A stretch of 39,800 nucleotides of DNA from the NCBI GenBank assembly GCA_017656505.1, contig JACDNU010000021.1:1-39800 (forward strand). Direction: 5' to 3'. The notes below the pieces were generated by a model that made no database searches, was not told where the DNA came from, and saw only the letters and a list, made by a program, of their open reading frames with translations. Positions 10,129 through 25,655 of the stretch are shown one piece after another. Every line of letters begins with the position of its first letter. The first letter of the stretch is position 1. Origin of the DNA: Archaeoglobus sp. Lineage in GTDB: Archaea; Halobacteriota; Archaeoglobi; Archaeoglobales; Archaeoglobaceae. Position numbers and translations under genes: made by a program.

Positions 10129-10202
10129 CTCAAAGAATCTAAATTGTAATTCCAATCCTAACCAACCCAAATAATTTTTCATAACAATATATTCTTCTCA
10201 AA

Positions 10203-10215
10203 AAATTTAAAAAAC
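10203..10215 (+). promoter_or_regulatory. TATA-like promoter of the second amidohydrolase gene
   Basis: AAAATTTAAAA lies about 25-30 nt before the ATG at 10237, which has no SD. This points to leaderless transcription. The 108-nt gap before the gene holds nothing else recognisable. Confidence 0.45.
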
Positions 10216-10236
10216 CCCGCCTTCGAAGTTTCTTGG

Positions 10237-11061
10237 ATGCTGATCATAGATTTTCATATGCACGTGTATGAAGAACCATGGAAAGGCTGGGTTGTCGATT
10301 TTCTCAAGAGTATAAACCCATCCGTAGATTACACCAAACCCGTCAAGCCGGAACACTTGCTCAGAGATATGGATAAAGCGGGAGTGAAATACGGGGTCGT
10401 TTTTGCAGAAAGCACGCCCCAAGTAACGGGAATCGTGAGCAACGAGTTCGTTTCCAGATTCTGCAGCGAAACAGAAAGGCTAATCCCATTTGCCTCTGTG
10501 AATCCAAATCTATCTCCCGATGCGGCAGGTGAGCTTGAATACTGTGTGAAAGAACTGGGAATGCGTGGCTTGAAGCTTCTTCCTTCTTACATGTACTTTT
10601 ATCCAAACGAGAGGAGAGTTTATCCCCTTTACGAGATGGCTGAAAAGCTGAAAATACCAGTTATTTTCCACACCGGGACTTCAGTTTTCAAAAAAGTGAG
10701 ACAGAAGTTTGCCGACCCGCTTTATCTGGATGATGTTGCAGTAGATTTCCCTGAGCTCACGATAATCATGGCCCACTCAGGAAGAGGGCTATGGTACAAC
10801 GCCGCTGAGATGCTCGCAAGGATTCACGAGAACGTTTACATGGAGATATCTGGCTTACCCCCAAAAAAACTGATGAGCTACTTCCCCAACCTAGAGAAAC
10901 TCTCAGATAAGGTTATATTTGGATCCGATTGGCCCGGATGCAGGCTCGACAGGCTTGTGAGCGATATAAAGTCCCTGCCATTAAGCGAGGAGGCTATTGA
11001 GAAAATTCTTGGCAGGAACGCGGCTGAGATTCTTGGCCTCAAAAATGGCAAAGATTTTTAA
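10237..11061 (+). CDS. amidohydrolase-2 family TIM-barrel protein
   Basis: This 274-residue amidohydrolase-2 protein has a complete metal/catalytic set: H7 and H9 (DFHMHV), K113 in GLKLLPS, H145 (PVIFHTGT), H180 (IIMAHSG) and D231 (FGSDWPG). It resembles the upstream protein but keeps the histidine that the latter lacks. The family includes aromatic-acid decarboxylases, lactonases and hydrolases, with one divalent metal. The ferredoxin gene follows after 22 nt, so it may be co-transcribed with redox genes serving the reductase. Substrate is unknown; aromatic or cyclic acid metabolism is inferred from location only. Confidence 0.8.
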   Translation: MLIIDFHMHVYEEPWKGWVVDFLKSINPSVDYTKPVKPEHLLRDMDKAGVKYGVVFAESTPQVTGIVSNEFVSRFCSETERLIPFASVNPNLSPDAAGELEYCVKELGMRGLKLLPSYMYFYPNERRVYPLYEMAEKLKIPVIFHTGTSVFKKVRQKFADPLYLDDVAVDFPELTIIMAHSGRGLWYNAAEMLARIHENVYMEISGLPPKKLMSYFPNLEKLSDKVIFGSDWPGCRLDRLVSDIKSLPLSEEAIEKILGRNAAEILGLKNGKDF

Positions 11062-11083
11062 TTAAGCAATCCAACGTTAGGTG

Positions 11084-11392
11084 ATGATTGCACAATACGG
11101 TTATAGGGATGGTTCGGGAGTTTATTACATAAGCATCGATACCGATCTATGCGATGGGTGCACGTCTCTTCCCCAGCCGAAATGTGTGGAGGTTTGCCCA
11201 TCTGGAGTCTTCGAAGTTGGAGAGGATGAGGTCGATCCTTTCAGGGAAGAGCCAGTTGCAAAAGTGAAAGAGGAGCACAGGAAGAAGCTCAGATTCAGCT
11301 GTGCTCCATGCAAGCCGGCTGGAGGATGGGATATAAACGAGCTCCCTTGCGTTAAAAGCTGTCCTAAAAACGCGATAAGTCATTCTTGGTAA
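11084..11392 (+). CDS. 8Fe-8S ferredoxin-like protein
   Basis: This is a 102-residue small iron-sulfur protein. It has one cluster motif at C23, C26, C34 and C38 (CDGC...CVEVCP) and a second at C73, C76, C89 and C93 (CAPC...CVKSCP), separated by a charged linker of 34 residues. The spacing differs from a compact clostridial ferredoxin and resembles the PsrB/DMSO-type electron-transfer ferredoxins. AGGTG abuts the ATG at 11084; a GTG at 11081 is the alternative start. In bacterial benzoate clusters a dedicated ferredoxin donates electrons to benzoyl-CoA reductase, and this one is a candidate for that role. Confidence 0.72.
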   Translation: MIAQYGYRDGSGVYYISIDTDLCDGCTSLPQPKCVEVCPSGVFEVGEDEVDPFREEPVAKVKEEHRKKLRFSCAPCKPAGGWDINELPCVKSCPKNAISHSW

Positions 11393-11437
11393 TCTGGTTT
11401 TGCTTTGAATGGTAAATCAAAAAAATTGTCTGAGAGC

Positions 11438-11662
11438 ATGTCCGAGAGCACGTCCGAATGGAAAAAGGCATTCACAATTGAAAAGGAAAGAGCACAGGAA
11501 TTTGTTGAGTTATATGAATCCATGGGATACGAAGTGAAGGTTGTGGATGCTGCAGAATGTGATTTTAAGGGAGAATGTAAGGTTTGCTATCTGCACGGCG
11601 ATTACGTGGAGATCTTTATAAGAGAGAAGCCCGAAGAGGGAGATTTGGAAGAAGTAGATTAA
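11438..11662 (+). CDS. small cysteine-containing protein of unknown function
   Basis: This is a short protein (74 residues from ATG 11438; up to 85 from a TTG at 11405). The core is acidic, with an alpha-beta pattern (FVELYESMGYEVKVVDA) followed by a C-x5-C-x2-C cluster (AECDFKGECKVC) and a beta strand (YVEIFIR). The start is uncertain because neither candidate has a clear SD. I do not recognise the family. The three cysteines and its place straight after the ferredoxin suggest a metal-binding or redox accessory, but that is inference. Confidence 0.6.
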   Translation: MSESTSEWKKAFTIEKERAQEFVELYESMGYEVKVVDAAECDFKGECKVCYLHGDYVEIFIREKPEEGDLEEVD

Positions 11663-11729
11663 TCGTTAAGCCGGGAAGCTTTAAGCGGTTAATTTGTAAG
11701 AAACTATTTTTAAATTTCTCATACTAAGT

Positions 11730-11745
11730 TAAATTTAAATATATT
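11730..11745 (+). promoter_or_regulatory. TATA box of the Lrp-like regulator gene
   Basis: TTTAAATATA (11734-11743) is centred about 24 nt before the ATG at 11763, and there is no SD. This is the classical spacing of a leaderless archaeal promoter. Confidence 0.6.
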
Positions 11746-11762
11746 GGAAGTTTACAGCTTTT

Positions 11763-12299
11763 ATGGAATTTGACATTCGAATGCCAATCGTAAAGCTCGA
11801 CAAAACCAAGATAGCAATTCTGAGGGAAAAAATATCGGATCCTAACATAACAACGAGAAAGCTCAGCCAAGTTCTGAAAGAGAAGTACAACATTTCAATG
11901 AGCCATGCAAGAATAGCGGAAATAATAAAAGAGATGAAGGAAAGCGAGGTTTTCAGGGAAACGGTCATACCGAACGAGAACTACTTCATATTCTCATTCA
12001 TGGAGTTCAGTTTTGACAACAAAAATTTCGCCGAAAACTGGAGGAAAACTTATGAATATCTTATTAACTGCCCGAACGTCATCCTTTTCTTCATAACAGA
12101 CGGGATCTTTCGTTGGAAATTCATAATGGTATTCAGAAGCTTTCAGGAGGTTTCCAGATGGGTCCATGAGTTTTTGAAGGAACACGGGAAGCTTGTCAAC
12201 GACATGAACATCCTCATAGTCTACCGCATTCTGAAGTTCAAGTTCGATGATAGACTGCTGGCCGACCTTCTCAGCTCGGGTAAGGATGAGGCTTATTAA
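11763..12299 (+). CDS. Lrp/AsnC-like winged-helix transcriptional regulator
   Basis: This is a 178-residue protein. Residues about 15-65 form a helix-turn-helix (ILREKISDPNITTRKLSQ, then MSHARIAEIIKEMKES). A roughly 100-residue alpha-beta domain follows that is rich in aromatic residues and looks like a divergent Lrp/AsnC effector domain (FIFSFMEFSF, VILFFITDGIFRW, ILIVYRILKF). It sits alone directly upstream of the benzoyl-CoA reductase operon, 126 nt away, and has its own leaderless promoter. It is the best candidate in the window for a local regulator of aromatic degradation. The effector ligand is unknown. Confidence 0.7.
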   Translation: MEFDIRMPIVKLDKTKIAILREKISDPNITTRKLSQVLKEKYNISMSHARIAEIIKEMKESEVFRETVIPNENYFIFSFMEFSFDNKNFAENWRKTYEYLINCPNVILFFITDGIFRWKFIMVFRSFQEVSRWVHEFLKEHGKLVNDMNILIVYRILKFKFDDRLLADLLSSGKDEAY

Positions 12300-12345
12300 C
12301 GTCATACAATGTAAAATTAAATCCGGTGAAAAATGTGAAATTGTT

Positions 12346-12361
12346 CGAAATTTTTATATAC
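12346..12361 (+). promoter_or_regulatory. BRE/TATA promoter of the benzoyl-CoA reductase operon
   Basis: CGAAA (12346-12350, BRE-like) is followed by TTTATATA (12353-12360). Transcription would begin near 12385, leaving a leader of about 40 nt that carries the GGGGGTG SD of the first gene. Two GTGAAA repeats (about 12326 and 12335) lie just upstream and could be part of an operator. Confidence 0.6.
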
Positions 12362-12425
12362 TTATTTTACGAGTTATTTTTAAAAAAGTTAAAAAGTTGA
12401 CAAAGTTTTGATTGGGGGTGTATGA

Positions 12426-13604
12426 ATGGGAAAAGATGTGGAAAAGCTTCCACAGATCAAACAGTTCAGGGAGTGGTTTGAAAAACGCCATGACTACGCC
12501 AAGGACTGGAAAAAGAAAAACGGGGGCAGAGTAGTTGGATATTACTGCACATATTGTCCAGAAGAGATTCTTTACGCTGCTGGAGTTCTTCCTGTGAGAA
12601 TCCTCGGTTCACATGAGCCCGAGAGCATAACGAGGCCGTATCTGCATGACATGTACTGTCCCTTCTGCCACGATACCCTTGCCCAAGGCTTGCAGGGAAG
12701 ATACGACTACTTAGATGGAGTTACGCTCGCACAATCCTGCCTTCACATGAGGCAAGCTTACTTCAGCTTTGCCGACAGGGTACCAAACATCGAGTGGAGT
12801 TACTACATGCCGTTTCCGCATGGAGTAAACAATCCTTATGCTGGAGAATACACGAAAGCTGAGTTTGAGAAGTTCAAAGCGAGTGTCGAGGAGTGGACGG
12901 GAACAACGATAACGAACAAAGAGCTTGACGAGGCGATTGAGGTTTACAACAAAAACAGGGAACTGATGATGAAGGTCTTCGAACTAAGAAAGGCGGAAAA
13001 TCCTCCCATAACGGGTTTGCATGCTATGGAAATGGTTGTTTCATCGCAAATGGTTGATAAAAGGGAACATAACGAGGTTCTTGAATCATTTCTGGAGGAT
13101 TTGAAGGATGTAGAGCCGAATAGAGAGACCGGCACAAGGCTTATGCTGATTGGGAGTGAGGATGACGATAGAAGTTTTCTTGAAATGATCGAATACGGAA
13201 TAAACTATCCGGCAACCTTCGTTTATGAGGAGAACTGCACGGGAGCGAGATACTTCTGGGATTTGGTTAGGCCTGAAGAAGACAGGCTAATGGCATTGGC
13301 AAAGAGATACGTTTACCGTGTTCCATGCCCCGCCAAAGACTGGGCCGTAGGAAAGCTTTTCAGAAGGAGATTCAACCACATTGAAAGTGTCATTAAAGAA
13401 TACAACGTTCAGGGGGCGATAATCGCCCAGATGAAGTTCTGTGATCCCCACGAGCTTGATATTCCTTCGTTAAGAAAGCTGTTCGACCAGCATGATGTCA
13501 AGCACTTAACGCTCGAACTCGACATTACTCAGCCGATAGGGCAGTTCAGAACTCGCGTTGAGGCTTTTCTGGAAGCTATGGCGGAGGAGGATTTATTCTT
13601 CTGA
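12426..13604 (+). CDS. bzdN: benzoyl-CoA reductase, BcrC/BzdN-type subunit
   Basis: This 392-residue member of the HgdB/FldC/BcrC family forms one half of the catalytic BC module of class I (ATP-dependent) benzoyl-CoA reductase. Conserved cysteines are C41 and C44 (YYCTYCPEE), C78 and C81 (YCPFCHD), C105 (QSCLHMR), C in EENCTGARYFW, C in VPCPAKDW, and C339 in MKFCDPHELDIP. The last motif is typical of cluster-ligating subunits. Length matches BzdN/BcrC (about 380). GGGGGTG precedes the start. It is the first gene of a five-gene operon, which carries both catalytic subunits, two ATPase subunits and a large electron-transfer protein. Confidence 0.92.
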   Translation: MGKDVEKLPQIKQFREWFEKRHDYAKDWKKKNGGRVVGYYCTYCPEEILYAAGVLPVRILGSHEPESITRPYLHDMYCPFCHDTLAQGLQGRYDYLDGVTLAQSCLHMRQAYFSFADRVPNIEWSYYMPFPHGVNNPYAGEYTKAEFEKFKASVEEWTGTTITNKELDEAIEVYNKNRELMMKVFELRKAENPPITGLHAMEMVVSSQMVDKREHNEVLESFLEDLKDVEPNRETGTRLMLIGSEDDDRSFLEMIEYGINYPATFVYEENCTGARYFWDLVRPEEDRLMALAKRYVYRVPCPAKDWAVGKLFRRRFNHIESVIKEYNVQGAIIAQMKFCDPHELDIPSLRKLFDQHDVKHLTLELDITQPIGQFRTRVEAFLEAMAEEDLFF

Positions 13605-13614
13605 GGTGATGAAG

Positions 13615-14946
13615 ATGGAAGTTAAGGTTAGGCCATTAGATTGCTGGAATGATTTTAAGAAGTATAGAGAGAGATATTACAAGAACTATCTTGAGGCAAA
13701 GGATAAAGGCGGGATAAGATGGGCAGGCTCTGCATGGGCCTTCGATCCCGTGCCCCATGGCTTGGGAGAGGATGTTTATTCTTTAACAGGCGAACCTTAC
13801 GGTGCTACATGCGCATTCTTCCATGATTTCTCGAGGGAGTGCTTAGAGAACATAGAGCGCCAAGGCGTTGCAAGAGATCTTTGCGGATACATGAGAAACT
13901 ACTGGGGCTCAATCGTGCTGGATAAGTACTTGCTTGCCGATGGAAGCACGGTCTCGCCTTTCCCGAAGCCGGATTTCAACTTCACGATTCACATCTGCTG
14001 CAGCCACGCGAAGTGGTATCATTTTGCGGCAGAGCTTGAAGGCGGAATTCCGACCTATGCTGTGGATATTTCCGTTGGCCCCGGATACATGCTCGATGAC
14101 AAGAAGATAGAGTATGTTGTCAGGCAGTTGAGGGATGCAATTCCTTGGATGGAGAAAATAACCGGCAGGGAATACGATGACGAGCTTTTGATAAAAGCCG
14201 TTTATGCTGAGGCTGATGCGATGTCAACTTGGGCAAAGATCTGCAAGCTAAACCAAGCACAGCCCGCTCCGCTTGAGGAGAAGTCAATGTTCAGCCTATA
14301 CGTGCTGAATCTGATAAATCGCGGAGACCCAGAGGTGGCGAAACTCTACCACAAGCTGTACGATGAGGTTGAGAGCAGAGTGAAGAGGGGAATAGGAGCC
14401 TTAACCTACGAGCAGTTCAGGTTCCTAACAGACAACCCACCTCCATGGGCTTTCCTGAAAGTCTATCGTTACCTGGAGAAGGAATACGGAGCGATCTCCT
14501 TAGGAGCTATCTACACTTTCGGCCTTGCAGGAGGATGGATCGGAATGGATGAGAAGGGAGAGAAGTGGATCTGGGAGCCTGCTCCGACTCCCGAAGAGGC
14601 GGGAGTTGAGATAACGAATAGGGAGGAGGCGTTGAGGTGGACGGCTGAATACAACCTCCGCTATCGCGCCTCGTGGCAGCATGAATACTCCCACTGGATT
14701 AGGAAGCAGGAAACGTATCAGATGGTCAAGGACTGGAAGGCCGATGCGATGATCATGCATCTCAATCGAGGATGCGAGCTGTGGAACATGTCAACCTTAG
14801 AAGTCAGAGATTACCTTGTCAAGAACGGAATATCGGTGGCAACCTATGAAGGAAACATGGCAGATCCGAGGGATTTCGACGAGGCGAGAACGTTCAACGT
14901 CATCGACTCCTTCATGCAAAGTCTTGGAATTGAGAAGATCAGCTGA
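13615..14946 (+). CDS. bzdO: benzoyl-CoA reductase, BcrB/BzdO-type subunit
   Basis: This is the second catalytic-module subunit, 443 residues from ATG 13615. The frame opens upstream inside bzdN, but GAGGTGAT (13603-13610) points to the ATG four nt later. Recognisable segments are RWAGSAWAFDPVPHGLGEDV, ATCAFFHDFSRECLENIE and FNFTIHICCSHAKWYHFAAE. The last corresponds to the conserved H-x-C region of BcrB. With BzdN it should bind benzoyl-CoA and a [4Fe-4S] cluster and carry out two-electron ring reduction to the 1,5-diene. It starts 10 nt after the bzdN stop, so the two are translationally coupled. Confidence 0.92.
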   Translation: MEVKVRPLDCWNDFKKYRERYYKNYLEAKDKGGIRWAGSAWAFDPVPHGLGEDVYSLTGEPYGATCAFFHDFSRECLENIERQGVARDLCGYMRNYWGSIVLDKYLLADGSTVSPFPKPDFNFTIHICCSHAKWYHFAAELEGGIPTYAVDISVGPGYMLDDKKIEYVVRQLRDAIPWMEKITGREYDDELLIKAVYAEADAMSTWAKICKLNQAQPAPLEEKSMFSLYVLNLINRGDPEVAKLYHKLYDEVESRVKRGIGALTYEQFRFLTDNPPPWAFLKVYRYLEKEYGAISLGAIYTFGLAGGWIGMDEKGEKWIWEPAPTPEEAGVEITNREEALRWTAEYNLRYRASWQHEYSHWIRKQETYQMVKDWKADAMIMHLNRGCELWNMSTLEVRDYLVKNGISVATYEGNMADPRDFDEARTFNVIDSFMQSLGIEKIS

Positions 14947-14964
14947 GGTTGAGGAGGTGGTTTG

Positions 14965-15735
14965 ATGATCGTTGCAGGAATTGATGTGGGGTCGAAGTTC
15001 ACGAAGGTTGTGATCGTTAATGATGCAAAAGAAATCTTAGGGTATTCTAACATAAGAACGGGGATGGATCATCATAAAACTGTTGAGGAGGCTTTGAATG
15101 AAGCTTTAAAGAATGCGAATCTTAAAAGAGAGGATATCAACAAATTCGTCGCAACGGGCTTTGGGAAGATCTCTGTTCCCTTTGCAGACTCGGAAATAAC
15201 CCAAGTGGTTGCAGCTGGGAAGGGAGCACACTTCGTGTGGCCAACCGTTAGAACGGTCATAGAGGTTGGAGCGGAGGAGTCAAGAGCGGTAAAGGTTGGA
15301 GATGACGGGAACATAAAGGACTTCGCTCTCGCAGATAAATGTGCTGCAGGAGCGGGATCTTTCGTTGACGCGATGGTAAGATACTTGGAAGTTCCATTGG
15401 AGGAGTTCGGGAAAATATCTCTGGAGGCTAAAGAGAGTGTTCCGATGAACGCCCAGTGTGTTATCTTTGCAGAGTCAGAAGTTGTGTCACTTTTGCATGC
15501 CAACTATCCGAAACCGGAAATCTCAAGGGCAATTCACGATGCAATCGCCGATAGGGTTGCTTCGATAGCGAGAAGAGTGGGAATAGAAGATGACGTGGTT
15601 CTAATAGGCGGTCTTGCAAATGATATCGGTTTCGTCGATTCAATGAAAAGGGAGCTGGGAACGGAAGTTTATGTGCCAGATAAGATTGCTCCTGAGCTTG
15701 TGCCAGCCCTGGGAGCAGCGATAGCAGAGCTTTAG
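14965..15735 (+). CDS. bzdP: benzoyl-CoA reductase activator ATPase subunit (BcrD/BzdP-type)
   Basis: This is a 256-residue ASKHA ATPase. It has phosphate-1 DVGSKFTK (7-14), TGFGK (64-68), cluster cysteines C126 (KCAAGAG) and C165 (AQCVIFAESE), and LIGGLAND. In the phosphate-2 motif the usual GGQDSKA is replaced by GAEESRA (102-108). As I recall, that variant also occurs in the BcrD-like subunit of bacterial enzymes. GGAGGTGG precedes ATG 14965; the TTG at 14962 is less likely. It would form a heterodimer with the next gene product around one bridging [4Fe-4S] cluster, coupling ATP hydrolysis to electron transfer. Whether it equals bzdP or bzdQ is judged mainly from gene order. Confidence 0.85.
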   Translation: MIVAGIDVGSKFTKVVIVNDAKEILGYSNIRTGMDHHKTVEEALNEALKNANLKREDINKFVATGFGKISVPFADSEITQVVAAGKGAHFVWPTVRTVIEVGAEESRAVKVGDDGNIKDFALADKCAAGAGSFVDAMVRYLEVPLEEFGKISLEAKESVPMNAQCVIFAESEVVSLLHANYPKPEISRAIHDAIADRVASIARRVGIEDDVVLIGGLANDIGFVDSMKRELGTEVYVPDKIAPELVPALGAAIAEL

Positions 15736-15747
15736 GGGGTGAAGAAA

Positions 15748-16635
15748 ATGGAGGCGATTCAGGAGAGTGAATATTGGAGATGGCCGGAAACCGTTTGGGT
15801 GGATGAGAGCAAGAACTGGAAGGAGGCTGAGGTGATAAGCTGCGGAATAGATCTCGGTTCGGTAAGCTCACAAGCAGTTATAATGCTTGATGGGGAGCTT
15901 TACGCTTACTCAAATCTTAGAACGGGTTCAAGCAGTGCAGCAAGCTCTGAAAAGGCTCTGAAGTCTGTGCTTGAGAAGATCGGAGACATGAAGATGGAGG
16001 ACATCCACTACATAGTCGGAACGGGCTATGGAAGAGTTAGCATACCTTTCGCCCAGAAAACTATAACGGAGATAGCATGCCATGGAAGAGGAGCTAACTA
16101 CATTTATGGCCCATCAGTAAGAACTGTGCTCGACATGGGCGGGCAGGATTTGAAGGCAATAAAAATCGACAATCGAGGCAAGGTTGTTAACTTCCTAATG
16201 AACGACAAGTGTGCTGCGGGAACGGGGAGAGGAATTGAGGTCGTTGCCGATTTGCTTTCGATCCCTATAACAGAGGTTGGTGAGCTCTCGCTGAAAGTTT
16301 ATCCAGACGACGAGCCCGAGCCTGTAAGCACGACATGCATAGTCTTCGGCAAGTCAGAGATTCTTGGCCTCATAAGAAAGGGCTGGCCGAAAGAGAGGAT
16401 ACTTGCAGCTTTCTTCAGATCCGTTGCAACGAGGGTTGTAGAGCTGCTTGAGAGAGTAGGAGTAGAGCCGGATTTTGCGATAACAGGAGGAATCTCAAAG
16501 AATCCCGGCGTTACGGTGAGAGTCCAAGATATGCTCGGAATTAAAGCTCTCGAACCAAAATTCGACCCGCAGCTTGCCGGAGCTGTAGGAGCAGCTCTGT
16601 TTGGAAGAGCACTATATCTTAAATCAAAGAAATAA
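15748..16635 (+). CDS. bzdQ: benzoyl-CoA reductase activator ATPase subunit (BcrA/BzdQ-type)
   Basis: This is a 295-residue ASKHA ATPase with a 30-residue N-terminal extension rich in Trp (EYWRWPETVW). The extension is followed by DLGSVSSQAV (35-44), TGYGR (92-96), the canonical DMGGQDLKA (129-137), cluster cysteines C155 (KCAAGTG) and C197 (TTCIVFGKSE), and TGGISKN. The start is ATG 15748 behind GGGGGTGA, which overlaps the previous stop region; a GTG at 15739 is less likely. Its length fits the short Azoarcus-type ATPase subunits rather than the long Thauera BcrA. With the preceding subunit it powers the BzdNO module. Confidence 0.86.
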   Translation: MEAIQESEYWRWPETVWVDESKNWKEAEVISCGIDLGSVSSQAVIMLDGELYAYSNLRTGSSSAASSEKALKSVLEKIGDMKMEDIHYIVGTGYGRVSIPFAQKTITEIACHGRGANYIYGPSVRTVLDMGGQDLKAIKIDNRGKVVNFLMNDKCAAGTGRGIEVVADLLSIPITEVGELSLKVYPDDEPEPVSTTCIVFGKSEILGLIRKGWPKERILAAFFRSVATRVVELLERVGVEPDFAITGGISKNPGVTVRVQDMLGIKALEPKFDPQLAGAVGAALFGRALYLKSKK

Positions 16636-16664
16636 CCCTTTTTATTTTTATTTTGGGGTGGAAT

Positions 16665-17756
16665 ATGGGAAATATAGGAAATTTCGTTTCGATTTTCATC
16701 AATGGAGAAAGAATTGAGGCTGAAGATGGAAAGACAATTCTCGAAGTTGCTCTGGCAAACGGGATTTACATTCCCAACCTCTGCTACCATCCAAATGTCT
16801 CACCGGCTCCAGGAAAGCAAGCAATTTCAGCAGTTTATAGGGGAGAAACTAGAATTGAAGGTAAAGAAGGAGAATATGAGGGTTGTGGCCTTTGTTTAGT
16901 CTCTGCAGATGGGGAAATCGTTAAGGCTTGCATTTACAAAGTGAGGGATGGACTAAAAGTTGAAACCGAGAGCGAGGAGGTAAAAACTCAGAGGAGGAGG
17001 AATCTCTCCAAAATTTTGGCAAATCACCCCCATGTTTGCATAACGTGCAGCTACCGTGAGGGCTGCGATAGGATCCAGTGTACCTTTGGATACCCAGTTG
17101 AGGAAAGATGTTGCGACCTGTTTCCGAAATGCGAGTTAAGATATGTGGCAGAATACATCGGAGTTCCCGAGGATACACCAAAGTACGTTTTCGCTGATCT
17201 GCCGGTTGTAGAGGAAAAGATGTATCGGTGGAACTGGAACTACTGCATAGGCTGCCTGAGATGTATCAGAGGATGTGAAGAGGTTAGGGAGGCAAAAGCT
17301 CTTGCGTTTACAATCGCAGATGGAATTGTGGTGGGAAGAACCGCACCAAGCGACAAGGAGTCGGGTTGCAAGTACTGCGGAGTTTGCGTTGAAATCTGCC
17401 CAACCGGTGTTGTTAGAGACCTAAAGGTTAAGGCAAGTAATAAGTGGAGGGATTCGATCGTAGCTAAGCAATTACCACAGCTTCGGGAGCTGACTCCTTT
17501 AACGGCTGAGGAAGTTGAGAAGGTACCCCAAAAATCGGGTGTTTATCGGATTTATGACGAGAACATGGAGCTCGTTTACATAAAGGGAACACCAAATCTA
17601 AGGGATGAACTGAGAAACGATATTGACAAAGGCGAATATTTCGATTATGAGGAGTACGAGATGTACACGATGAGGGAGAGCGAGCTTATCCAGGAATTTC
17701 TGCAGAAGCATGGCAGAATGCCAAAATATAACGATGAGCTAGAAGATCTTTTCTAA
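16665..17756 (+). CDS. NuoG-like multi-cluster iron-sulfur protein with degenerate GIY-YIG-like tail
   Basis: This is a 363-residue protein. Residues 8-95 are a plant-type [2Fe-2S] domain (C40, C74, C77, C89). Next comes the His-Cys3 [4Fe-4S] motif of NuoG and Fe-hydrogenases (H121, C125, C128, C134). Two further [4Fe-4S] motifs follow (C194/C197/C200/C204 and C235/C238/C241/C245). Residues about 287-355 read GVYRIYDENMELVYIKGTPN and resemble a GIY-YIG fold without its catalytic residues. SD GGGGTGG precedes ATG 16665; a TTG at 16653 is less likely. As the last gene of the reductase operon it is the likely electron-input subunit from ferredoxin or NAD(P)H to the activator ATPases. The tail's role is unknown. 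Confidence 0.85.
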   Translation: MGNIGNFVSIFINGERIEAEDGKTILEVALANGIYIPNLCYHPNVSPAPGKQAISAVYRGETRIEGKEGEYEGCGLCLVSADGEIVKACIYKVRDGLKVETESEEVKTQRRRNLSKILANHPHVCITCSYREGCDRIQCTFGYPVEERCCDLFPKCELRYVAEYIGVPEDTPKYVFADLPVVEEKMYRWNWNYCIGCLRCIRGCEEVREAKALAFTIADGIVVGRTAPSDKESGCKYCGVCVEICPTGVVRDLKVKASNKWRDSIVAKQLPQLRELTPLTAEEVEKVPQKSGVYRIYDENMELVYIKGTPNLRDELRNDIDKGEYFDYEEYEMYTMRESELIQEFLQKHGRMPKYNDELEDLF

Positions 17757-17807: not shown

Positions 17808-18995
17808 TTAAGCTTCGGTTGCTTGAACTTGGACTGTCTCCTGAGTTAGCTCAGGCATCCTCCCTGTTCTCTTCGCCCAAACGTATGCTAGGCCCCTATA
17901 CATCAGGTGTGCGAATTTCGAGTAGGGGGCATACACCAAGAGCATGAAGACGAAGTAGAGATGCGCCAAGTAAAGCGGATAGGCTATGCTTGCAGCCCCA
18001 GCAAACCTTGATGCTTCCATTAGGATTCCCGTTATCACAACGAGGTACAAGTCCGTTATGAAAAACCAGTCCTGATAGCTCGGACTCCCTGCCACATCAG
18101 ATCTTGAGAGCCTCGCATAGTAAATCCAGCTTACGCCAACGAACACCAGCAAAAAGCCGAGGTTACCGAGGATCTTTACTGGATCGTAGATTGGCAAAGC
18201 TAATTCGTGTATGCCCAACCCATGCATGTAGATTGTTGCTCCAGCTGTCGAAATTGCAAGCAGGATGAAGCCGTAAAAAGCCCCAAGATGGGCCCAGTAG
18301 CGGTAGCTGTTCGTTGTGCACTCTTTGAACCTTGAATGCTTGATTATTTCTAGCAGTGCTTCCCAAAGTTCCGTAAGAAAGCCCTTAGTTTTCTGTTCTG
18401 TTTTTCCTTCAACCCCTCTTTCAACCTCGAAAGCTAAGTCTTGCGACATCCCGATGGCCTTCCAGTACTTGTAGAAGCTTATCAGAGCCACTAGGATCAC
18501 ATAAGCTCCAGCTGTGAGTCCCGCAACTTCAATAGCGAGATCGTTGATAAAGGAACCGAAGATTACGTGCTCCATATCAGGTGTTTTCAGGACTCCCGGA
18601 ATCTGGAGAACGGCAAACATTAGAACTAGCGGTATCAACAAAACTATCGGGAGATACATCGGAGACGTGAAAAGCTTCCCTATGAACTTCGGTGTTGAGA
18701 ATTCGTAGAATATGTAGTTTCTCACCGCATTGAGCACCTCGCCAGGCTTTGCTCCTCTCGGGCAGTAAACTGAGCAGTCGTTGCACTGATGGCACAGCCA
18801 TATATCCGGATCCTTCAGCAGCTTGTCCTTTAAACCCCATTGCGCCCATATCATCTCCTTTCTCGGAAATGGATTGTCATCAGGCGATAACGGGCATACA
18901 ACGGAGCAAGTTGCACATTGGAAGCATTTCTTTAGCGAAGCTCCACCCATTTTCAGTAGGTCATTTACGAAGTTTACATCCGGCTCTACTTTCAT
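17808..18995 (-). CDS. qmoC: QmoC, quinone-interacting membrane-bound oxidoreductase membrane subunit
   Basis: This 395-residue fusion has an HdrC-like N-terminus with two [4Fe-4S] motifs (C24/C27/C30/C34 and C68/C71/C74/C78). An HdrE/NarI-like membrane part follows, with about six hydrophobic segments: roughly residues 113-133, 155-177, 228-250, 268-288, 306-325 and 337-360. It carries histidines (HLGAFYGF, AHLYFVF, FAHLMYR) able to bind heme b. QmoABC transfers electrons from menaquinol to adenylylsulfate reductase. GAGGTGATGGAAA precedes the ATG. It is the last gene of qmoABC, 26 nt after qmoB. Confidence 0.93.
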   Translation of the reverse strand: MKVEPDVNFVNDLLKMGGASLKKCFQCATCSVVCPLSPDDNPFPRKEMIWAQWGLKDKLLKDPDIWLCHQCNDCSVYCPRGAKPGEVLNAVRNYIFYEFSTPKFIGKLFTSPMYLPIVLLIPLVLMFAVLQIPGVLKTPDMEHVIFGSFINDLAIEVAGLTAGAYVILVALISFYKYWKAIGMSQDLAFEVERGVEGKTEQKTKGFLTELWEALLEIIKHSRFKECTTNSYRYWAHLGAFYGFILLAISTAGATIYMHGLGIHELALPIYDPVKILGNLGFLLVFVGVSWIYYARLSRSDVAGSPSYQDWFFITDLYLVVITGILMEASRFAGAASIAYPLYLAHLYFVFMLLVYAPYSKFAHLMYRGLAYVWAKRTGRMPELTQETVQVQATEA

Positions 18996-19021
18996 TTTCC
19001 ATCACCTCAAAAATAAAGAAA

Positions 19022-21295
19022 TTAGAAGCCCTTGTACGGGTTGGCTCCTATCTCTTCAATTTCTTCAATGAACTCTTGGATTATCTGTGGAATCTTGTCG
19101 TAGTCAGAGATTGGCAGCTGAACAACTTTGACTCTCTCCGGCTCCAAAGCAAGCCTTTCAAGGGTCTCTTTTACGTTCTCCATTCTCCTGTTCGCAAGCT
19201 CGCTACCGCGGAGGAAGTGGCACTGGTAGTCTTCACCATACTTGCAGCCTATAAGGATTGCTCCGTCGATTCCTCTAGAGAGAGCATCGGCAACCCAGAC
19301 AACGTTGAATGAACCGAGACATCTCAGCGGGATGATTCTAACGTTTGGATCCCATTCAAGTTTGTTTAAAGCAGCCATATCGAAAGCTGGATAAGCGTCA
19401 TTTTCGCAGACGAAGGCTATGAATCTCAGCCCCTCGTCTTCATCTTCGGGTACGTAGATGCTTTTCACCATCGAACCGATCATGTCAACGCTGTAGTTCT
19501 TGAACGAAATGATCCTCTCTGGACATGCACCCATGCAGACTCCACACCTTCTGCATCTGTTTGGATTCGGTAGAGGCGTTCCCTTTTCATCCTCATCCAA
19601 AGCGCCAAATGGACATTCTTCGGTGCATCGCTTACACTGTGTGCATCTTTGCAGGAAGAATTCGGGATAGCTCAGATCGCCAACCCTCGGGAAGGTTGCC
19701 GCTCCGTTTCCTATCAGCTCCAAAGCCTGCACCGCTTTCAAAGCTGCTCCTGTTGCGTCGTATTCACTCTCCGCAACTCCCATCGGCTGTCTTATTGGGC
19801 CAGCTGCGTATATCGCGGTCCTCCCGCTTTCATACGGGAAGCATATGAAGTTCGAGTCGGAAAATCCGTACTTCAGCGGAGGTAAGTCAGGCCCTTGTCT
19901 ATACTGCAAATTCAGTATTCCCTTATAGTCTTCCAGCGCCTCCCACAACTTGTCCGAAGCAACCATCATACTTTCTTCCGGTGTAGGTTCACCAAGCCCC
20001 ATTAGTTCTCTTGCTTTGAAGTACCTTTTCTGATATTCATAAAGCCTCGGAACCATTCCGGTTGCAAGAACCACGAGATCAGCTTCAATTTCTATGTCTT
20101 CGCCAAGCAATGTGTCAGCAACCTCCACAACCATCTTGCCGTTCGTCTTGTTGACTCCCTTTATCTCGCCTTTTGTAAGAAATACACCCGGATCCTCCTG
20201 AACTCGCTTGTAGAAGTCCTCATACTTTCCAGGGGTTCTTATGTCCTTGTAAATTATGAAGGCCTTTGCATCCGGATTCTGGTTTCTGACATACAAAGCC
20301 TGCTTCAGCGATACCATGCAGCATATCCCTGAACAATAGGGAAGATGCTCCGGATCTCTCTGTCCAGCGCATTGAATGAAGACCACGCTCTTCGCCTCTT
20401 CGCCTGTTGAAGGGACGACTATCTTTCCATTCGCAGCCATCTCTTCCATCTGTACATTTGTGATCACATCTGGATACTTTCCATACCCTAAATGCTCGAG
20501 CTTTGTCGCATCATACGGCTCCCAGCCAGCAGCCACGACTATCGAGCCAATCTTTATCTCTTCCTGCGTGCCATTCTTGCTTATTACAACATCAAACAGC
20601 CCAGGCTGGCCGGAAATCTTTTCAACATAGGATGACGTGAAGACCTTTATCCTCTCGTCCTCCATCACAGCCTTGATCTTCTCATCGATGTCGGGTTTGC
20701 GAAGGTCTCTGAACGGTGGTTTATCTGGTGTGAGCCAAGCGAACTTCTTCACCCAGCCTCCTAATTCCGGCTCCTTTTCAACCAAATAAACATCATATCC
20801 AGCCTTTGCAGCTTCTAATGCAGCTGTTAAGCCAGTAACCCCTCCACCGATGACCAGAACACTCTTTGTAATTTCCTCCTTGTATGGCTCCGGCAGCTCT
20901 GTTTTCTGGGCTTTGACTATTCCCATCCTTATGTAGTCTTCTGCCAGCATCTGTGTATCCTTATCGTTCGGCTTGTGACTCCAGACAACATGCTCTCTGA
21001 GATTTATTCTCTCTACAATAACATCTGGGAAGTTGAACGTGTCGAAGTTAACTCTAGGAGAGCATGCAGCAATAATTACGGTGTTAACTCCTTCTTCGAT
21101 GTCTTTCTTTATTAGCTCAACTCCCTCTGGGCCACAGAGGAATTCGTGAGTTTTGCTTTCAACTGAGAACTCTTCATCTGCAACTTCTTTAAGCTTGTCA
21201 ATGTCGAGAGACTTTCCAATCTCACAACCCGTGCATATGTAAAGCATATACTTTTTCTCAACCTTTTCAGCTTTTTCAGCTTCGCCATCTGTCAT
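19022..21295 (-). CDS. qmoB: QmoB, HdrA/MvhD-like flavoprotein
   Basis: This 757-residue HdrA-type protein opens with CTGCEIGK (C21, C24) and a domain ending in IIAACSPR. An FAD-binding fold follows (VLVIGGGVTGLTAALEAA), then two [4Fe-4S] motifs (CTQCKRCTEECP and CRRCGVCMGACP). It ends in an MvhD-like domain with cysteines in RCLGSFN and GCKYGEDYQCHF. It is the flavin/iron-sulfur subunit of the Qmo complex, which faces AprBA in the cytoplasm. ATG 21295 is preceded by AGAGGTGA; the GTG at 21304 would overlap the qmoA stop. The MvhD domain is known to support electron-bifurcation-like or confurcation schemes in relatives. Confidence 0.93.
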   Translation of the reverse strand: MTDGEAEKAEKVEKKYMLYICTGCEIGKSLDIDKLKEVADEEFSVESKTHEFLCGPEGVELIKKDIEEGVNTVIIAACSPRVNFDTFNFPDVIVERINLREHVVWSHKPNDKDTQMLAEDYIRMGIVKAQKTELPEPYKEEITKSVLVIGGGVTGLTAALEAAKAGYDVYLVEKEPELGGWVKKFAWLTPDKPPFRDLRKPDIDEKIKAVMEDERIKVFTSSYVEKISGQPGLFDVVISKNGTQEEIKIGSIVVAAGWEPYDATKLEHLGYGKYPDVITNVQMEEMAANGKIVVPSTGEEAKSVVFIQCAGQRDPEHLPYCSGICCMVSLKQALYVRNQNPDAKAFIIYKDIRTPGKYEDFYKRVQEDPGVFLTKGEIKGVNKTNGKMVVEVADTLLGEDIEIEADLVVLATGMVPRLYEYQKRYFKARELMGLGEPTPEESMMVASDKLWEALEDYKGILNLQYRQGPDLPPLKYGFSDSNFICFPYESGRTAIYAAGPIRQPMGVAESEYDATGAALKAVQALELIGNGAATFPRVGDLSYPEFFLQRCTQCKRCTEECPFGALDEDEKGTPLPNPNRCRRCGVCMGACPERIISFKNYSVDMIGSMVKSIYVPEDEDEGLRFIAFVCENDAYPAFDMAALNKLEWDPNVRIIPLRCLGSFNVVWVADALSRGIDGAILIGCKYGEDYQCHFLRGSELANRRMENVKETLERLALEPERVKVVQLPISDYDKIPQIIQEFIEEIEEIGANPYKGF

Positions 21296-21300
21296 CTTAA

Positions 21301-22572
21301 TCACCTCTTAGCTGTCTGGATTCCTTTCAAAGCTGCAGCTGTTCCCTGTTCCACAACCGATGCGACGTCAGCTGGGCCAAGTGCAACACCAGCAGCATAT
21401 ATGCCCGGCGCATCAAAGCTCGCAAATCCATAGTCGTCGAGCTTGAGCTCCTTAATCGGAAGCTTTAGGTCTGAAAGTTCCGGCTGCATTCCTGTAGCGA
21501 GAACTACCATCTCAACCTCCGTCCTCGTTTTCTCTCCCGTTAGTGTGTTCTCGGCAACCACTACCAGATTTCCATCCTCTCCTTCCTCTATTTTCGCAAC
21601 CTTGCCCTTGATGAACTCGATGTTTTCGTCTTGACTTACTTTGGTATAGAAGTCCTCAAACCTCCCCTGGGCTCTTATATCGATGTAGAAGATGTAAACC
21701 TTTGAATCGGGGATCTGCTCTCTCACGTACGTTGCCTGTTTCATTGAAGCGAGACAGCATATGGCCGAGCAGTAAGGTAGATGGTTTTCATCTCTCGAGC
21801 CTGCACACTGCACGAAAGCAATAGTCTTAGGCTCCTTCCCATCGCTCGGCCTTACGATTTTTCCTTTCGTCGGGCCGTTGAAAGCTGCAAGTCTTTCCAT
21901 CATAACATTCGTTATCACGTTCGGGTAAACTCCGAAGCCAAGATTGTCCAGCTTGGTTGCATCATATGGTTTCCAACCGGTAGCGATTACTATGGAATCG
22001 GCCTTGATCCTTATCGTCTTTGGTTCCATGTTCAGATTGATCGCGTCATAGCTGCATACCTCGACACACTTCGCACATTCGAGCTTCTTGCACACCGAAT
22101 CATCAATGACGTACTTCATTGGAAAAGCCAAGTCGTGGGGCAGATAGATAGCTTTAGTCTTGTCCATTCCGTAGTTGAAGTCGTTCTCCCTTTCAACCGG
22201 ACAGACTTCAACACATTCCCCGCATGCAGTGCACTTCTCCAGATCAACGTATCTCGGGTTTAGTCTGATGTCAACATCAAAGGCTCCCGGCTCTCCGCTC
22301 ACATCAACCACTTCGGCCATTGTGAAATACTTGATCTTCGGATTCGTCCTTATTCTTCTGAAGATAATTTCCAAACCGCAGTATGGTGGGCAGAGCTTAG
22401 GGAAATAGCGATAAAGCTGCGCAACCCTTCCGCCGAGATACGGCTTTTTTTCAATCAGATAAACATCGTAGCCAGCCTCTGAAGCTTCCAAAGCAGCACT
22501 CAAGCCAGCCATGCCACCCCCAATAACCAAAATATTTCCGCTTAGCGCCCCTGACGGAATACTATCCCTCAT
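21301..22572 (-). CDS. qmoA: QmoA, HdrA-like flavoprotein
   Basis: This is a 423-residue HdrA-like flavoprotein. The dinucleotide-binding motif is at 18-23 (GGGMAG), with GGRVAQLYRYFPKLCPPYC following. A ferredoxin-like insert comes next (CTACGECVEVCP and CAKCVEVCSYDAI), then the second FAD-binding part (VLATGMQPELSD, GIYAAGVALGPADVASVV). It is the first gene of the qmoABC operon and supplies the shorter soluble subunit of the menaquinol-to-AprBA electron path. The start is ATG 22572 with AGGAGG seven nt upstream; a TTG further upstream (22608) opens the frame but has no SD. Confidence 0.93.
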   Translation of the reverse strand: MRDSIPSGALSGNILVIGGGMAGLSAALEASEAGYDVYLIEKKPYLGGRVAQLYRYFPKLCPPYCGLEIIFRRIRTNPKIKYFTMAEVVDVSGEPGAFDVDIRLNPRYVDLEKCTACGECVEVCPVERENDFNYGMDKTKAIYLPHDLAFPMKYVIDDSVCKKLECAKCVEVCSYDAINLNMEPKTIRIKADSIVIATGWKPYDATKLDNLGFGVYPNVITNVMMERLAAFNGPTKGKIVRPSDGKEPKTIAFVQCAGSRDENHLPYCSAICCLASMKQATYVREQIPDSKVYIFYIDIRAQGRFEDFYTKVSQDENIEFIKGKVAKIEEGEDGNLVVVAENTLTGEKTRTEVEMVVLATGMQPELSDLKLPIKELKLDDYGFASFDAPGIYAAGVALGPADVASVVEQGTAAALKGIQTAKR

Positions 22573-22609
22573 GTTATGCCTCCTGTTTTTAACCTCTTGA
22601 TTTTCCAAT

Positions 22610-22653
22610 CCGATAACTTAAAAGCTTTATCTTATTCGATCTAAATAAAACGG
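22610..22653 (-). promoter_or_regulatory. probable promoter region of qmoABC
   Basis: Two AT-rich candidate TATA boxes lie upstream of qmoA, read on the minus strand: GCTTTTAAGTTAT (about 22613-22625) and CGTTTTATTTAGATCG (about 22638-22652). A terminator-like structure sits between aprA and this region, so a separate promoter is expected. Which box is used is not decided. Confidence 0.35.
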
Positions 22654-22670
22654 ATTTGATAAAATCAGAA

Positions 22671-22756
22671 TCAAAAAGAAAATAAAAAGAATAATGCGGT
22701 GAAAGGGGGTTGGTTTTAAAAAAATTAGAAGGTTTGTTCAACCCCCATTCACGCAT
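22671..22756 (-). terminator. strong hairpin plus U-rich tract after aprA
   Basis: Two arms at 22694-22712 and 22739-22756 pair as ATGCG/CGCAT, TGAA/TTCA and GGGGGTTG/CAACCCCC: 17 base pairs with one bulge and one mismatch, around an A/T-rich loop of 26 nt. Reading on the minus strand, a T-rich tract (TTATTCTTTTTATTTTC) follows directly. This should terminate or attenuate the sat-apr transcript before qmoA. Confidence 0.75.
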
Positions 22757-22766
22757 CTTACCGCCT

Positions 22767-24683
22767 TTACTCTGGGACTAACTGGACGTATGGTCTCTCA
22801 ATAACTTCCCACTCGTCGCTCTGTGGGTTGTACCTGACGTTAACGAACTTTCTCCAGTTTGCATCGTCCAAGTCGGGATAGTCTGATCTGTAGACGTAGC
22901 CCGGATACCTTGTTTCCTTCCTTGCAAGGATCGTTCTTGCGTGAGCTTCAGCGACCCACATTCTGTGGATGTTCTCCCAGCATCTCATGAGCTCGTGCAG
23001 ATCTTCAGCAGCAAGCTTCTCGCTATCCTCTTTGAGGAACTGCAGAAGCTTCAGCAGATGCAGCAGCATCTTTTCGCTGGTTGTGTAGTAGGTGAAGGCT
23101 CCACCGCAGTACTCGCACATCATCTTCTGCAATCTGAACATGAACATCTTTGGCCTAATGTAGTTCGGATTGACGTCTGGTCTTGTCGTTGCTCCTTTGT
23201 GCTCCTCGAACAGGTTCAATGGTCTGTAAACGAGCTCCCTCAGTTTCATTATTCTGTCTTCACTAACTGCTGGTGTGTAGTCCTTGTGATCTCTCGCAAA
23301 CCTAACAGCGGCTTTGGCGGCGATTCTTCCCTCGGTGAATGAACCGCTTGAGAACTTGTGGCCGCTTGCTCCAGCTCCGTCACCGCACGTGAAGAGTCCC
23401 ATAACGGTTGTCATTCTGTTGTAGTGAGCTGGGAATGCATCCTTGTACTCATCTGGCATCAGGTCCGATGGGCCGCACACCCACGCACCGCTCGCTCCTG
23501 CATGGGAGCCGATGAAGTAGGGCTCTGCTGGCATAATTTCGGATGGTTCTTCGGCCGGATCGATGTTCATTGCAGCCCACAGCAAAGCCTGGGAGATTGT
23601 CATGTCGAGGAAGTCTTCCCAAGCCTCGCTTTCAAGCTCCTTGAATTTCTTCTTTCTCTCCTTCTCGTCTGGGATCTCCTCAGCCAGAGCTTTGATAGCC
23701 TCTGGAGTCCTCATGTAGATCGGGCCCTTGCCCTCTTTCATGTCAAGGAGCATTGCATGGTTTCTGAGGCATGTTGGCATTGGCTGCATCGAACCATAGG
23801 GCTGGAATTTCTCTACCTCTGCCTTTCTTGTAACCATGTACTCCTCGCCGTAAGCGTTCGTGGCTTTAGACTTGAACAGCAGGAACCACGCTCCCACAGG
23901 CCCATAACCATCCTTATATCGAGCGGGAACGAATCTGACATCCATGCACGTCAGCTCAGCACCAACCTGAGCCATCAGAGCATAGGTTGAGCCGGAATTC
24001 CAAGGTGGATACCAAGCTCTTCCCAAACCTTCTCCGGTTGATCTCGGCCTGAAGACGTGGACAGCTCCACCCATCGCGCATATTACTGCCTTCGCCTTGA
24101 AGACGTAGAACACATCTTCTCTAACGCTGAAGCCGACAGCACCGCAAACCCTGTTCGGATCGTTGTCATCTGTGAGCAGGTGGGTAATCATTACCCTCTC
24201 ATAGATGTTGTCCATTCCAAGGGCGCTCTTGGCAGCTTCAGCAACTATAACCTTGTAGCTCTCACCGTTTATCATGATCTGCCACGGGCCCTCTCTGATA
24301 TACTTGCCATCCTTGTCTTTCCAAATCGGCAGCCCCCATTTCTCGAAGAGATGAACCGTTGAGTCGACGTGTCTGCCTATATCGTAAACGAGATCTTCTC
24401 TTATTATACCCATGAGGTCTGTTCTGACGTATTTAACGAAATCTTCAGGCCTCCACTGCCCGTAGGTAGCCCTCCCGCTCATTCCAAGGTAAGTGTTTAT
24501 AGCAGAAAGGCCCATTGCAACTGCTCCGCTTCTATCGATAGCAGCCTTGTCAACGAGAGTTACCTTCAGGCCCAAGGGCTTAGCCCAGTACGATGCCTCA
24601 ACAGCGGCCCCGCAGCCTGACATTCCTCCACCAAGTATCAAAACATCTGTCTCAACTTCTCTAATTTCAGCCTCGTATGGCAT
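22767..24683 (-). CDS. aprA: adenylylsulfate (APS) reductase alpha subunit
   Basis: This 638-residue FAD enzyme is close to the length of the Archaeoglobus protein. FAD motif VLILGGGMSGCGAAVEA is at 14-30, followed by VDKAAIDRSGAVAMGLSAIN, a stretch conserved in AprA. Further landmarks are ELTCMDVRFVPARYKDG, with the arginine that contacts APS in known structures, and GSHAGASGAW, with the conserved active-site His. It reduces APS to sulfite and AMP in the cytoplasm, with electrons arriving through AprB. GGAGGTGTAATTT precedes the ATG. aprA follows aprB by 15 nt, and a hairpin terminator lies downstream. Confidence 0.96.
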   Translation of the reverse strand: MPYEAEIREVETDVLILGGGMSGCGAAVEASYWAKPLGLKVTLVDKAAIDRSGAVAMGLSAINTYLGMSGRATYGQWRPEDFVKYVRTDLMGIIREDLVYDIGRHVDSTVHLFEKWGLPIWKDKDGKYIREGPWQIMINGESYKVIVAEAAKSALGMDNIYERVMITHLLTDDNDPNRVCGAVGFSVREDVFYVFKAKAVICAMGGAVHVFRPRSTGEGLGRAWYPPWNSGSTYALMAQVGAELTCMDVRFVPARYKDGYGPVGAWFLLFKSKATNAYGEEYMVTRKAEVEKFQPYGSMQPMPTCLRNHAMLLDMKEGKGPIYMRTPEAIKALAEEIPDEKERKKKFKELESEAWEDFLDMTISQALLWAAMNIDPAEEPSEIMPAEPYFIGSHAGASGAWVCGPSDLMPDEYKDAFPAHYNRMTTVMGLFTCGDGAGASGHKFSSGSFTEGRIAAKAAVRFARDHKDYTPAVSEDRIMKLRELVYRPLNLFEEHKGATTRPDVNPNYIRPKMFMFRLQKMMCEYCGGAFTYYTTSEKMLLHLLKLLQFLKEDSEKLAAEDLHELMRCWENIHRMWVAEAHARTILARKETRYPGYVYRSDYPDLDDANWRKFVNVRYNPQSDEWEVIERPYVQLVPE

Positions 24684-24698
24684 AAATTACACCTCCAA

Positions 24699-25142: not shown

Positions 25143-25284
25143 TTTTTCACCTCCAATCCAATTTCCTATCCAACTTTCCTACCATTCCACTTTTTTTCCA
25201 ATTTCCTATTTTCTATTTTTAAAACCTTTCTATTTTAAAATTCAAATTTTTTCGACTATTTTACAAAATTTTAAAAAATTAAGC
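25143..25284 (-). promoter_or_regulatory. leader/promoter region of aprBA with repeated GGAAA-type motifs
   Basis: Read on the minus strand, an AT-rich half (about 25210-25284, with TTTTAAAATAG and TTTTAAAAATAG as TATA candidates) is followed by a purine-rich leader. The leader holds ATAGGAAATTGGA twice, exactly (25197-25209 and 25157-25169), plus a degenerate copy (TAGGAAAGTTGGA, 25169-25181). The SD GGAGGTG ends the region. The repeats may be a regulator or RNA-binding site. Confidence 0.45.
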
Positions 25285-25650: not shown

Positions 25651-25655
25651 CGCCA

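Follow-up and report, generated by a model that had tools for sequence, protein, structure and literature searches.

A nuclease-like GIY-YIG tail on the electron-input proteins of BZD-type benzoyl-CoA reductase loci, and its possible role in docking to the BzdPQ activator

Class I benzoyl-CoA reductases (BCRs) must be supplied with electrons at the limit of the redox range that biology covers. The electrons are activated by one dimer, which binds ATP and has a bridging [4Fe-4S] cluster, and used by a second, catalytic one; the encounter between these dimers (BzdPQ and BzdNO) is thought to be only transient in the BZD type, as described in a 2025 structural paper (PMC11971306). The bzd clusters of Azoarcus/Aromatoleum CIB include BzdV, a putative NADPH:ferredoxin oxidoreductase (PMC5658619, PMC5736913), and in F. 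placidus a co-expressed ferredoxin, Ferp_1180, has been noted (PMC6500515). The locus described here raises the question of why a protein that appears to bring electrons to such a reductase should end in a domain resembling a GIY-YIG nuclease. The window, meaning the whole stretch analysed, is 39,800 nt of an Archaeoglobus sp. genome (contig JACDNU010000021.1), and the features considered are collected in Table 1.

The operon in the window is, judging by its predicted products, that of a BZD-type class I BCR, since the NCBIfam models for bzdO and bzdQ score above their cut-offs, a bzdN-like gene falls just under its own, and the bzdP position is filled, all upstream of the electron-input gene. 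A third BcrAD-type ATPase gene, near the start of the window (317-1099), clusters with BzdP/BzdQ. Convergent to the operon, on the minus strand, is a sulfate-reduction cluster (17808-27023) with genes for QmoC, two HdrA-like proteins, AprA, AprB and ATP-sulfurylase; from gene order, the HdrA-like pair is probably QmoB/QmoA. The convergent HdrA-like genes (17808-24683) were considered as BCR partners and rejected: NCBIfam and Pfam give QmoC and AprA here, with AprB and ATP-sulfurylase beyond, and because these belong to sulfate reduction the HdrA-like genes are placed outside the BCR system. In some Archaeoglobus loci (L075, L076, L078), QmoC-like and HdrA-like genes still adjoin the tail protein.

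Table 1. Features of the bzd operon and of its electron-input protein, in window coordinates
Feature	Position (nt)	Strand	Basis and remarks
Ferredoxin upstream of bzdN	11081..11392	+	Fer4_9; homologues (cluster c4) adjoin the tail protein in other loci
bzdN-type reductase subunit	12426..13604	+	TIGR03190 432.9 bits, cut-off 453.8 (slightly below); HGD-D
bzdO-type reductase subunit	13558..14946	+	TIGR03191 477.9 bits, cut-off 448.6; start uncertain, family searches used 13606
bzdP-type ATPase/activase, predicted partner	14962..15735	+	BcrAD_BadFG, TIGR00241 (acyl-CoA dehydratase-type activase)
bzdQ-type ATPase, predicted partner, directly upstream of the tail protein	15739..16635	+	TIGR03192 408.8 bits, cut-off 380.2
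Electron-input protein of the bzd operon, short form	16665..17756	+	Fe-S part and tail, without flavin/NAD domain
[2Fe-2S] domain Fer2_4, residues 8-103	16686..16973	+	Pfam, E 6.2e-15; C40, C74, C77, C89
His-Cys cluster region, residues 121-156	17025..17132	+	H121, C125, C128, C134, C139, C149, C150, C156
Two further [4Fe-4S] motifs, C194/C197/C200/C204 and C235/C238/C241/C245	17244..17399	+	Pfam
Linker, residues 263-276	17451..17492	+	pLDDT <50 at 267-274 in the full-length model
GIY-YIG-like (DUF7508) tail, residues 277-363 (87 residues)	17493..17753	+	Pfam, AlphaFold2, Foldseek, VIA, hhalign
GIY...YIG-equivalent segment GVYRIYDENMELVYIKG, residues 292-308	17538..17588	+	G292, I306, G308 invariant; YIG Gly replaced by K307
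Long C-terminal helix, residues 334-349	17664..17711	+	DSSP of models; R337-E338-S339-E340; E338, Q343 invariant (49/49)
Acidic-aromatic C-terminal peptide DELEDLF	17733..17753	+	Low pLDDT at 360-363

Relatives were collected by scanning 84,980 species genomes with two motif patterns, which matched 148 stretches, 41 of them relatives of the window protein. The archaeal ones are from Archaeoglobi, Bathyarchaeota, Thermoplasmata and other groups, the bacterial ones, by record title, from Planctomycetota, Chloroflexota, Deltaproteobacteria, Brocadiaceae and Kapaibacterium. A tree and column counts were made from 49 proteins, comprising the window protein, 33 from the 41 motif loci and 15 taken from genome searches; loci that were cut, masked or split (L080, L082, L084, L090, L097, L099, L100, L101) were left out. 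The full-length alignment (A5) holds 27 of the 41 loci plus the window, and the tail alignment (A4) all 41 plus the window. A plasmid search for tail-bearing relatives matched 183 records, and none of the best 20 reached the tail; the Cys-rich segment of the electron-input protein had no plasmid match.

The tail is retained on proteins of two kinds. Short forms of about 360-375 aa are found in Archaeoglobi; orthologues with the same short architecture as the window protein occur in nine other archaeal genomes, with a similar 394-aa form in locus L142. Long forms (740-880 aa) have Fer4_20 and Pyr_redox_2 (FAD, NAD(P)) domains between the Fe-S part and the tail, in the position of the linker, and their FAD modules are NAD(P)-binding and resemble glutamate synthase small subunits. 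In a quick tree of the 49 proteins, the eight Archaeoglobi short forms make up one clade, beside an FAD-containing form (L086; support 88), with L142 elsewhere. The FAD domain has likely been lost twice: this tree needs two changes, though a single one is still compatible with it. Within the window's own genus, loci L074-L078 encode a different input protein of about 750 aa, with both FAD domain and tail; it is preceded by a NuoF gene and a gene for a 148-155-aa protein, all downstream of the BCR genes. At L207, a homologue at 9468-10535 follows immediately on the BCR genes.

The window protein itself has 363 residues from an ATG start, with an upstream TTG at 16653 as a possible alternative. 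Its full-length model is structurally like HydA and NuoG input modules, and the Pfam NADH-G His-Cys and 4Fe-4S dicluster models match residues 110-134 and approximately 190-250, partly below cut-off. It falls outside the NuoG equivalog TIGR01973, scoring 72.5 bits against a cut-off of 470.05. Since no flavin or pyridine-nucleotide domain is among the families that it matches, it is best read as an Fe-S wire, which would be fed by ferredoxin or another donor.

The cluster ligands are well kept. The four Cys of the [2Fe-2S] domain are present in 46-47 of the 49 rows, the remaining rows being gaps, and those of the two further [4Fe-4S] motifs in all 49, except for C238 (45/49). In the segment between them, His121 and each of seven Cys are found in 49/49. 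Canonical paralogues from the same genomes have just one His and three Cys here and are without the insert within residues 121-156. The four invariant Cys additional to the canonical NuoG His-Cys3 set probably bind an extra [4Fe-4S] cluster. The preliminary description had listed a [2Fe-2S] motif, a His-Cys3 motif and two more [4Fe-4S] motifs; all are present, and its count of clusters is probably one too few. Two distant tail-less relatives (L194, L196) have a Cys-containing insert at the equivalent place, with different spacing.

Is the tail really a GIY-YIG domain? Its sequence had been given as GVYRIYDENMELVYIKGT, which is exactly what residues 292-309 read. The window tail belongs to DUF7508 (PF24348) by score (29.0 bits against a gathering cut-off of 26), and this model matches all 42 tails at E<=10, with a best value of 1.2e-12, and 25 of 28 full proteins at E<=0.01. 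AlphaFold2 gave a mean pLDDT of 86.7 on the 42 tails, with core blocks at 91-96; the strands (28-33, 39-45, 61-66) and helices (48-54, 70-85) of the tail model give the beta-beta-alpha-beta-alpha arrangement of a GIY-YIG structure. Foldseek comparison with the PDB returned UvrC GIY-YIG domains or the N-terminal domain of GrxS16 at ranks 1-10 (E 5.9e-4 to 1.6e-2, probability 1.00), with ranks 11-50 at a probability of 0.41 or less. VIA aligned the tail with UvrC (1yd6_D; Z 9.7, rmsd 2.2, 77 residues aligned) and with GrxS16 (2lwf; Z 9.2, rmsd 3.3, 89 aligned); further rows down to Z 4.5 are UvrC and other endonucleases, several titled GIY-YIG, and unrelated rows begin at 4.0. Among PDB sequences, 8fje has the best E-value against the tail profile; this repetitive hit on a short helix was disregarded.

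Profile comparisons agree with the structural ones. With hhalign, the tails matched six archaeal UvrC domains at a probability of 94.6 and 15 haloarchaeal DUF7508 proteins at 94.5. The corresponding scores of the 42-tail profile (44.3 and 43.8) were reached by none of 200 column-shuffled controls in either case, the maxima being 21.3 for UvrC and 17.2 for DUF7508. Chance resemblance is rejected on this shuffled null, the fold search and the Pfam match, and the models confirm the predicted fold as GIY-YIG, of the DUF7508 group. The suggestion of a nuclease-like fold on an electron-transfer protein has therefore held up under the structure prediction and fold search named beforehand as its check, GIY-YIG domains being the best rows of both Foldseek and VIA. 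Nor is the tail missing or random in orthologues: its mean pairwise identity over the 49 proteins is 52.5%, equal to that of the Fe-S part (52.2%), and among the eight Archaeoglobi the values are 70.5% and 64.7%.

What has been conserved is not the nuclease. GIY-YIG nucleases are characterised by the GIY and YIG motifs, a central Arg and a C-terminal Glu, according to a 2006 superfamily survey (PMC1564403). In the 49 tails aligned to UvrC, the GIY Tyr is found in 23 and the YIG Tyr in 25, the YIG Gly in none (K in 38) and the helix Arg in one, so the tail lacks the set of GIY and YIG motifs plus central Arg, with Gly292 kept in 49/49. The earlier statement that the tail has no catalytic residues stands for the YIG Gly and the helix Arg and needs amending for the two Tyr, which are present in the window tail and variable in the family. 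Candidates for the C-terminal Glu are E338 (49/49), E340 (48/49) and E344 (variable). The placement of E338 depends on the method: a low-confidence profile alignment puts it at a Glu at the start of the helix, and a hand alignment of the preceding strand at the UvrC catalytic Glu.

The invariant positions of the tail, 14 columns among the 42 tails, are of another kind. Besides E338, residues G292, I306, G308, Q343, G350 and L362 are found in 49/49, and E329, M333 and P353, like E340, in 48/49; R337 varies in the more divergent tails. The sequence [DE]L[FY] occurs within the last seven residues of every one of the 49. Tails have a median net charge of -9 and a pI of 4.5, as against +4 and 9.4 for six UvrC domains. 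Cys is not conserved anywhere in the tail, its highest count at one position being 5/49, and disulfide control as in GrxS16 was set aside on these grounds. On the evidence of residues and charge the tail is not taken for an active nuclease, the Glu being left aside; with the nuclease residues lost or variable, the tail acidic, and an acidic [DE]L[FY] end throughout, a nuclease role appears unlikely.

If not with nucleic acids, then with what does the tail travel? A BcrAD-type ATPase gene is found upstream on the same strand at 33 of the 41 motif-found loci, which is 33 of the 34 assessable, seven being interrupted by a contig end (L077, L082, L084, L097) or runs of N (L080, L100, L101). The exception (L104, genome G396) has an HdrA-like gene in the place of the ATPase, and a 71-72% identical BzdQ homologue beside a ferredoxin on another contig. 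Motif-free profile searches (E<=1e-20) identified 11 strong tails in 297 genomes, two in 301 and nine in 300. Three of these 22 genomes have cut loci (G405, G605, G1109) and five are shared with the motif set (G392, G394, G402, G405, G1279). BzdP/BzdQ-type genes are directly upstream of the tail protein in 18 of the 19 assessable, the exception being G700, where BzdP, BzdQ and a ferredoxin are on a contig other than that of the tail protein. The tail marks BZD-type class I BCR loci across archaea and bacteria, an observation that is new here.

The association appears to be specific to the tail. Searches of 17 genomes gave a single strong tail in each, with one further weak match in three, while 12 genomes have between 1 and 15 matches to the Fe-S and FAD part, most of which stop before the tail. 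The closest tail-less paralogue examined, L206, has 36% identity to the query across residues 1-741, and no BzdN, BzdO, BzdP, BzdQ or ferredoxin was found in the 16 kb around it.

Two loci bear on which of the neighbours matters. At L146 (genome G680; 9630-14417) and L149 (G579; 9542-13849), BzdP and then BzdQ precede the tail protein, and no match to BzdN or BzdO was found within 19 kb. The genome-wide search for reductase subunits used BzdO only; the best matches in G680, G579 and G700 are about 25-31% identical (E 6.9e-25, 6.4e-28 and 1.6e-18), as compared with E 4.3e-157 in G689, where a full operon is present. Assembly incompleteness may account for the lack of BzdNO in these three genomes. 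As they stand, the gene sets of the two loci favour the ATPase as the constant companion of the tail protein.

The reading preferred here, to which we give a probability of roughly 0.55, is that the tail is a non-nuclease module by which the BCR electron-input protein docks, with the BzdPQ activator as its most likely partner. Docking, which the preliminary description had proposed for the reductase or ATPase subunits without choosing between them, is suggested indirectly by the linkage to BzdPQ, conservation equal to that of the Fe-S part, the acidic, nuclease-dead character of the domain and its invariant acidic-aromatic C-terminus, and the ATPase is favoured as partner because BzdPQ and the tail protein occur without nearby BzdNO in two genomes. 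Several points weigh against it. Gene order can mirror a shared pathway instead of contact; BzdPQ is separate from the tail protein in G700, as is the BzdQ homologue in G396; the invariant E338 could reflect a residual catalytic or metal-binding role; and standalone relatives of the tail, in small haloarchaeal and thermoproteotal proteins, place the domain outside BCR systems as well. The tail might instead bind another common partner, the operon's small ferredoxin or the BzdNO reductase, which we regard as possible but doubtful. The ferredoxin (cluster c4) is in the upstream operon of many loci and BzdN/BzdO in most, and PMC11971306 gives reduced ferredoxin as the accepted electron donor for class I BCR; at L145, L146 and L149, however, the ferredoxin query used has no match, nor do BzdN/O at the latter two, and the ATPases are present.

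A purely structural or assembly domain, which acts in self-association, folding or thermal stability and has no partner outside the protein, would fit a tail that sits on a flexible linker in short and long forms alike. It seems a less likely account again, since L206 and the many tail-less FAD paralogues imply a core generally independent of the tail, and the linkage to BzdPQ is too regular for it. That the tail keeps a nucleic-acid role, as a residual nuclease or in DNA or RNA binding, and couples redox state to a nucleic-acid process as in GrxS16, draws on the fold, on the GrxS16 domain (2lwf) being among the best matches, and on the endonuclease activity reported for the GIY-YIG domain of GrxS16, coupled to its redox domain (PMC5890173). 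The residue losses, the lack of conserved Cys and the charge opposite to that of UvrC make this very improbable. Least credible of all is a passive, functionless relic inherited with the gene: loss of the nuclease residues is what such a relic would display, but a neutral one would not hold invariant columns from archaea to bacteria, nor match the Fe-S part in conservation.

Under the docking reading, the window protein would supply electrons to an archaeal class I BCR of the BZD type, as its electron-input subunit. Its NuoG-like chain of one [2Fe-2S] and probably four [4Fe-4S] clusters would pass low-potential electrons to the ATP-driven BzdPQ, the direction of flow being our assumption; the long relatives presumably accept electrons from NAD(P)H. 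The tail, on its flexible linker and with its acidic [DE]DL[FY] peptide, may tether the wire to BzdPQ, or to a BzdPQ-BzdNO assembly, such that electrons would reach the bridging cluster of BzdPQ. A wider version can be offered tentatively, in which BzdPQ-type activators have the nuclease-dead GIY-YIG domain with its acidic DDLF end as their own docking or gating module; it would deliver electrons to them from interchangeable input proteins (Fe-S only or Fe-S plus FAD), and the BzdPQ-tail operons without BzdNO may serve unrecognised low-potential reductases.

Tail-like domains also occur in other settings. Many genomes of the phylum of L092 have one or two standalone relatives of about 95-125 aa (95-107-aa ORFs in L152-L158 and L164); most of those shown are without the helix Arg, and of three sampled, two matched DUF7508 only and one GIY-YIG only, weakly. 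Proteins of about 250-260 aa in L162 (3381-4124), L163 (3095-3880) and L139 (3216-3986) include a tail-like domain; in L162, the one scanned, a DUF5752-like stretch comes after it and the protein ends like a zinc ribbon. Small GIY-YIG/DUF7508-like proteins of 94-95 aa are encoded in L064 (1584-1868) and L066 (5281-5562), two loci from relatives of the window's family, where they adjoin a gene set common to both loci and unrelated to BCR.

The GIY-YIG fold, DUF7508, NuoG-like input modules and BZD operons have each been described before, and GrxS16 is a published GIY-YIG/redox fusion; the new element is the fixed attachment of a non-nuclease GIY-YIG domain to the electron-input proteins of BCR. 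A word search of the main text of the 2006 survey (PMC1564403) found no ferredoxin, oxidoreductase or glutaredoxin, and the open-access literature searched, to which subscription papers are mostly external, yielded neither "DUF7508" nor GIY-YIG together with benzoyl-CoA reductase. The tail is a concrete, testable candidate for donor docking at BZD-type loci, and a sequence marker separating BCR-linked input proteins from the many similar FAD/Fe-S paralogues of the same genomes.

Among known systems, NuoG, HydA and HoxU input proteins share with the window protein the [2Fe-2S], the His-Cys3 and two 4Fe-4S ferredoxin-type motifs; the window protein differs in its four extra invariant Cys (121-156) and its GIY-YIG-like tail, and has no NuoG or hydrogenase catalytic part. 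BzdV of CIB, likened by description only, would correspond less to the window protein, which is without an FAD module, than to the long relatives, which have one. Like the tail, DUF7508 is missing the helix Arg and has an N-terminal segment before the GIY, but its best-scoring members here are small haloarchaeal ORFs without the RESE helix motif or the DDLF end. The UvrC GIY-YIG domain (1yd6, 1ycz) shares the fold (Foldseek E 5.9e-4, probability 1.00), from which the tail departs in its replaced YIG Gly and helix Arg, its acidic instead of basic character and its acidic C-terminal peptide. The nearest parallel in arrangement is the N-terminal domain of GrxS16 (2lwf), a GIY-YIG fold on a redox/Fe-S protein, although GrxS16 is a plant protein whose regulation, as reported in PMC5890173, uses a Cys of the GIY-YIG domain, and the tails have no conserved Cys. 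The tail is a further example of the GIY-YIG fold carried by a redox protein, in this instance one of central catabolism, and it seems to have no nuclease residues.
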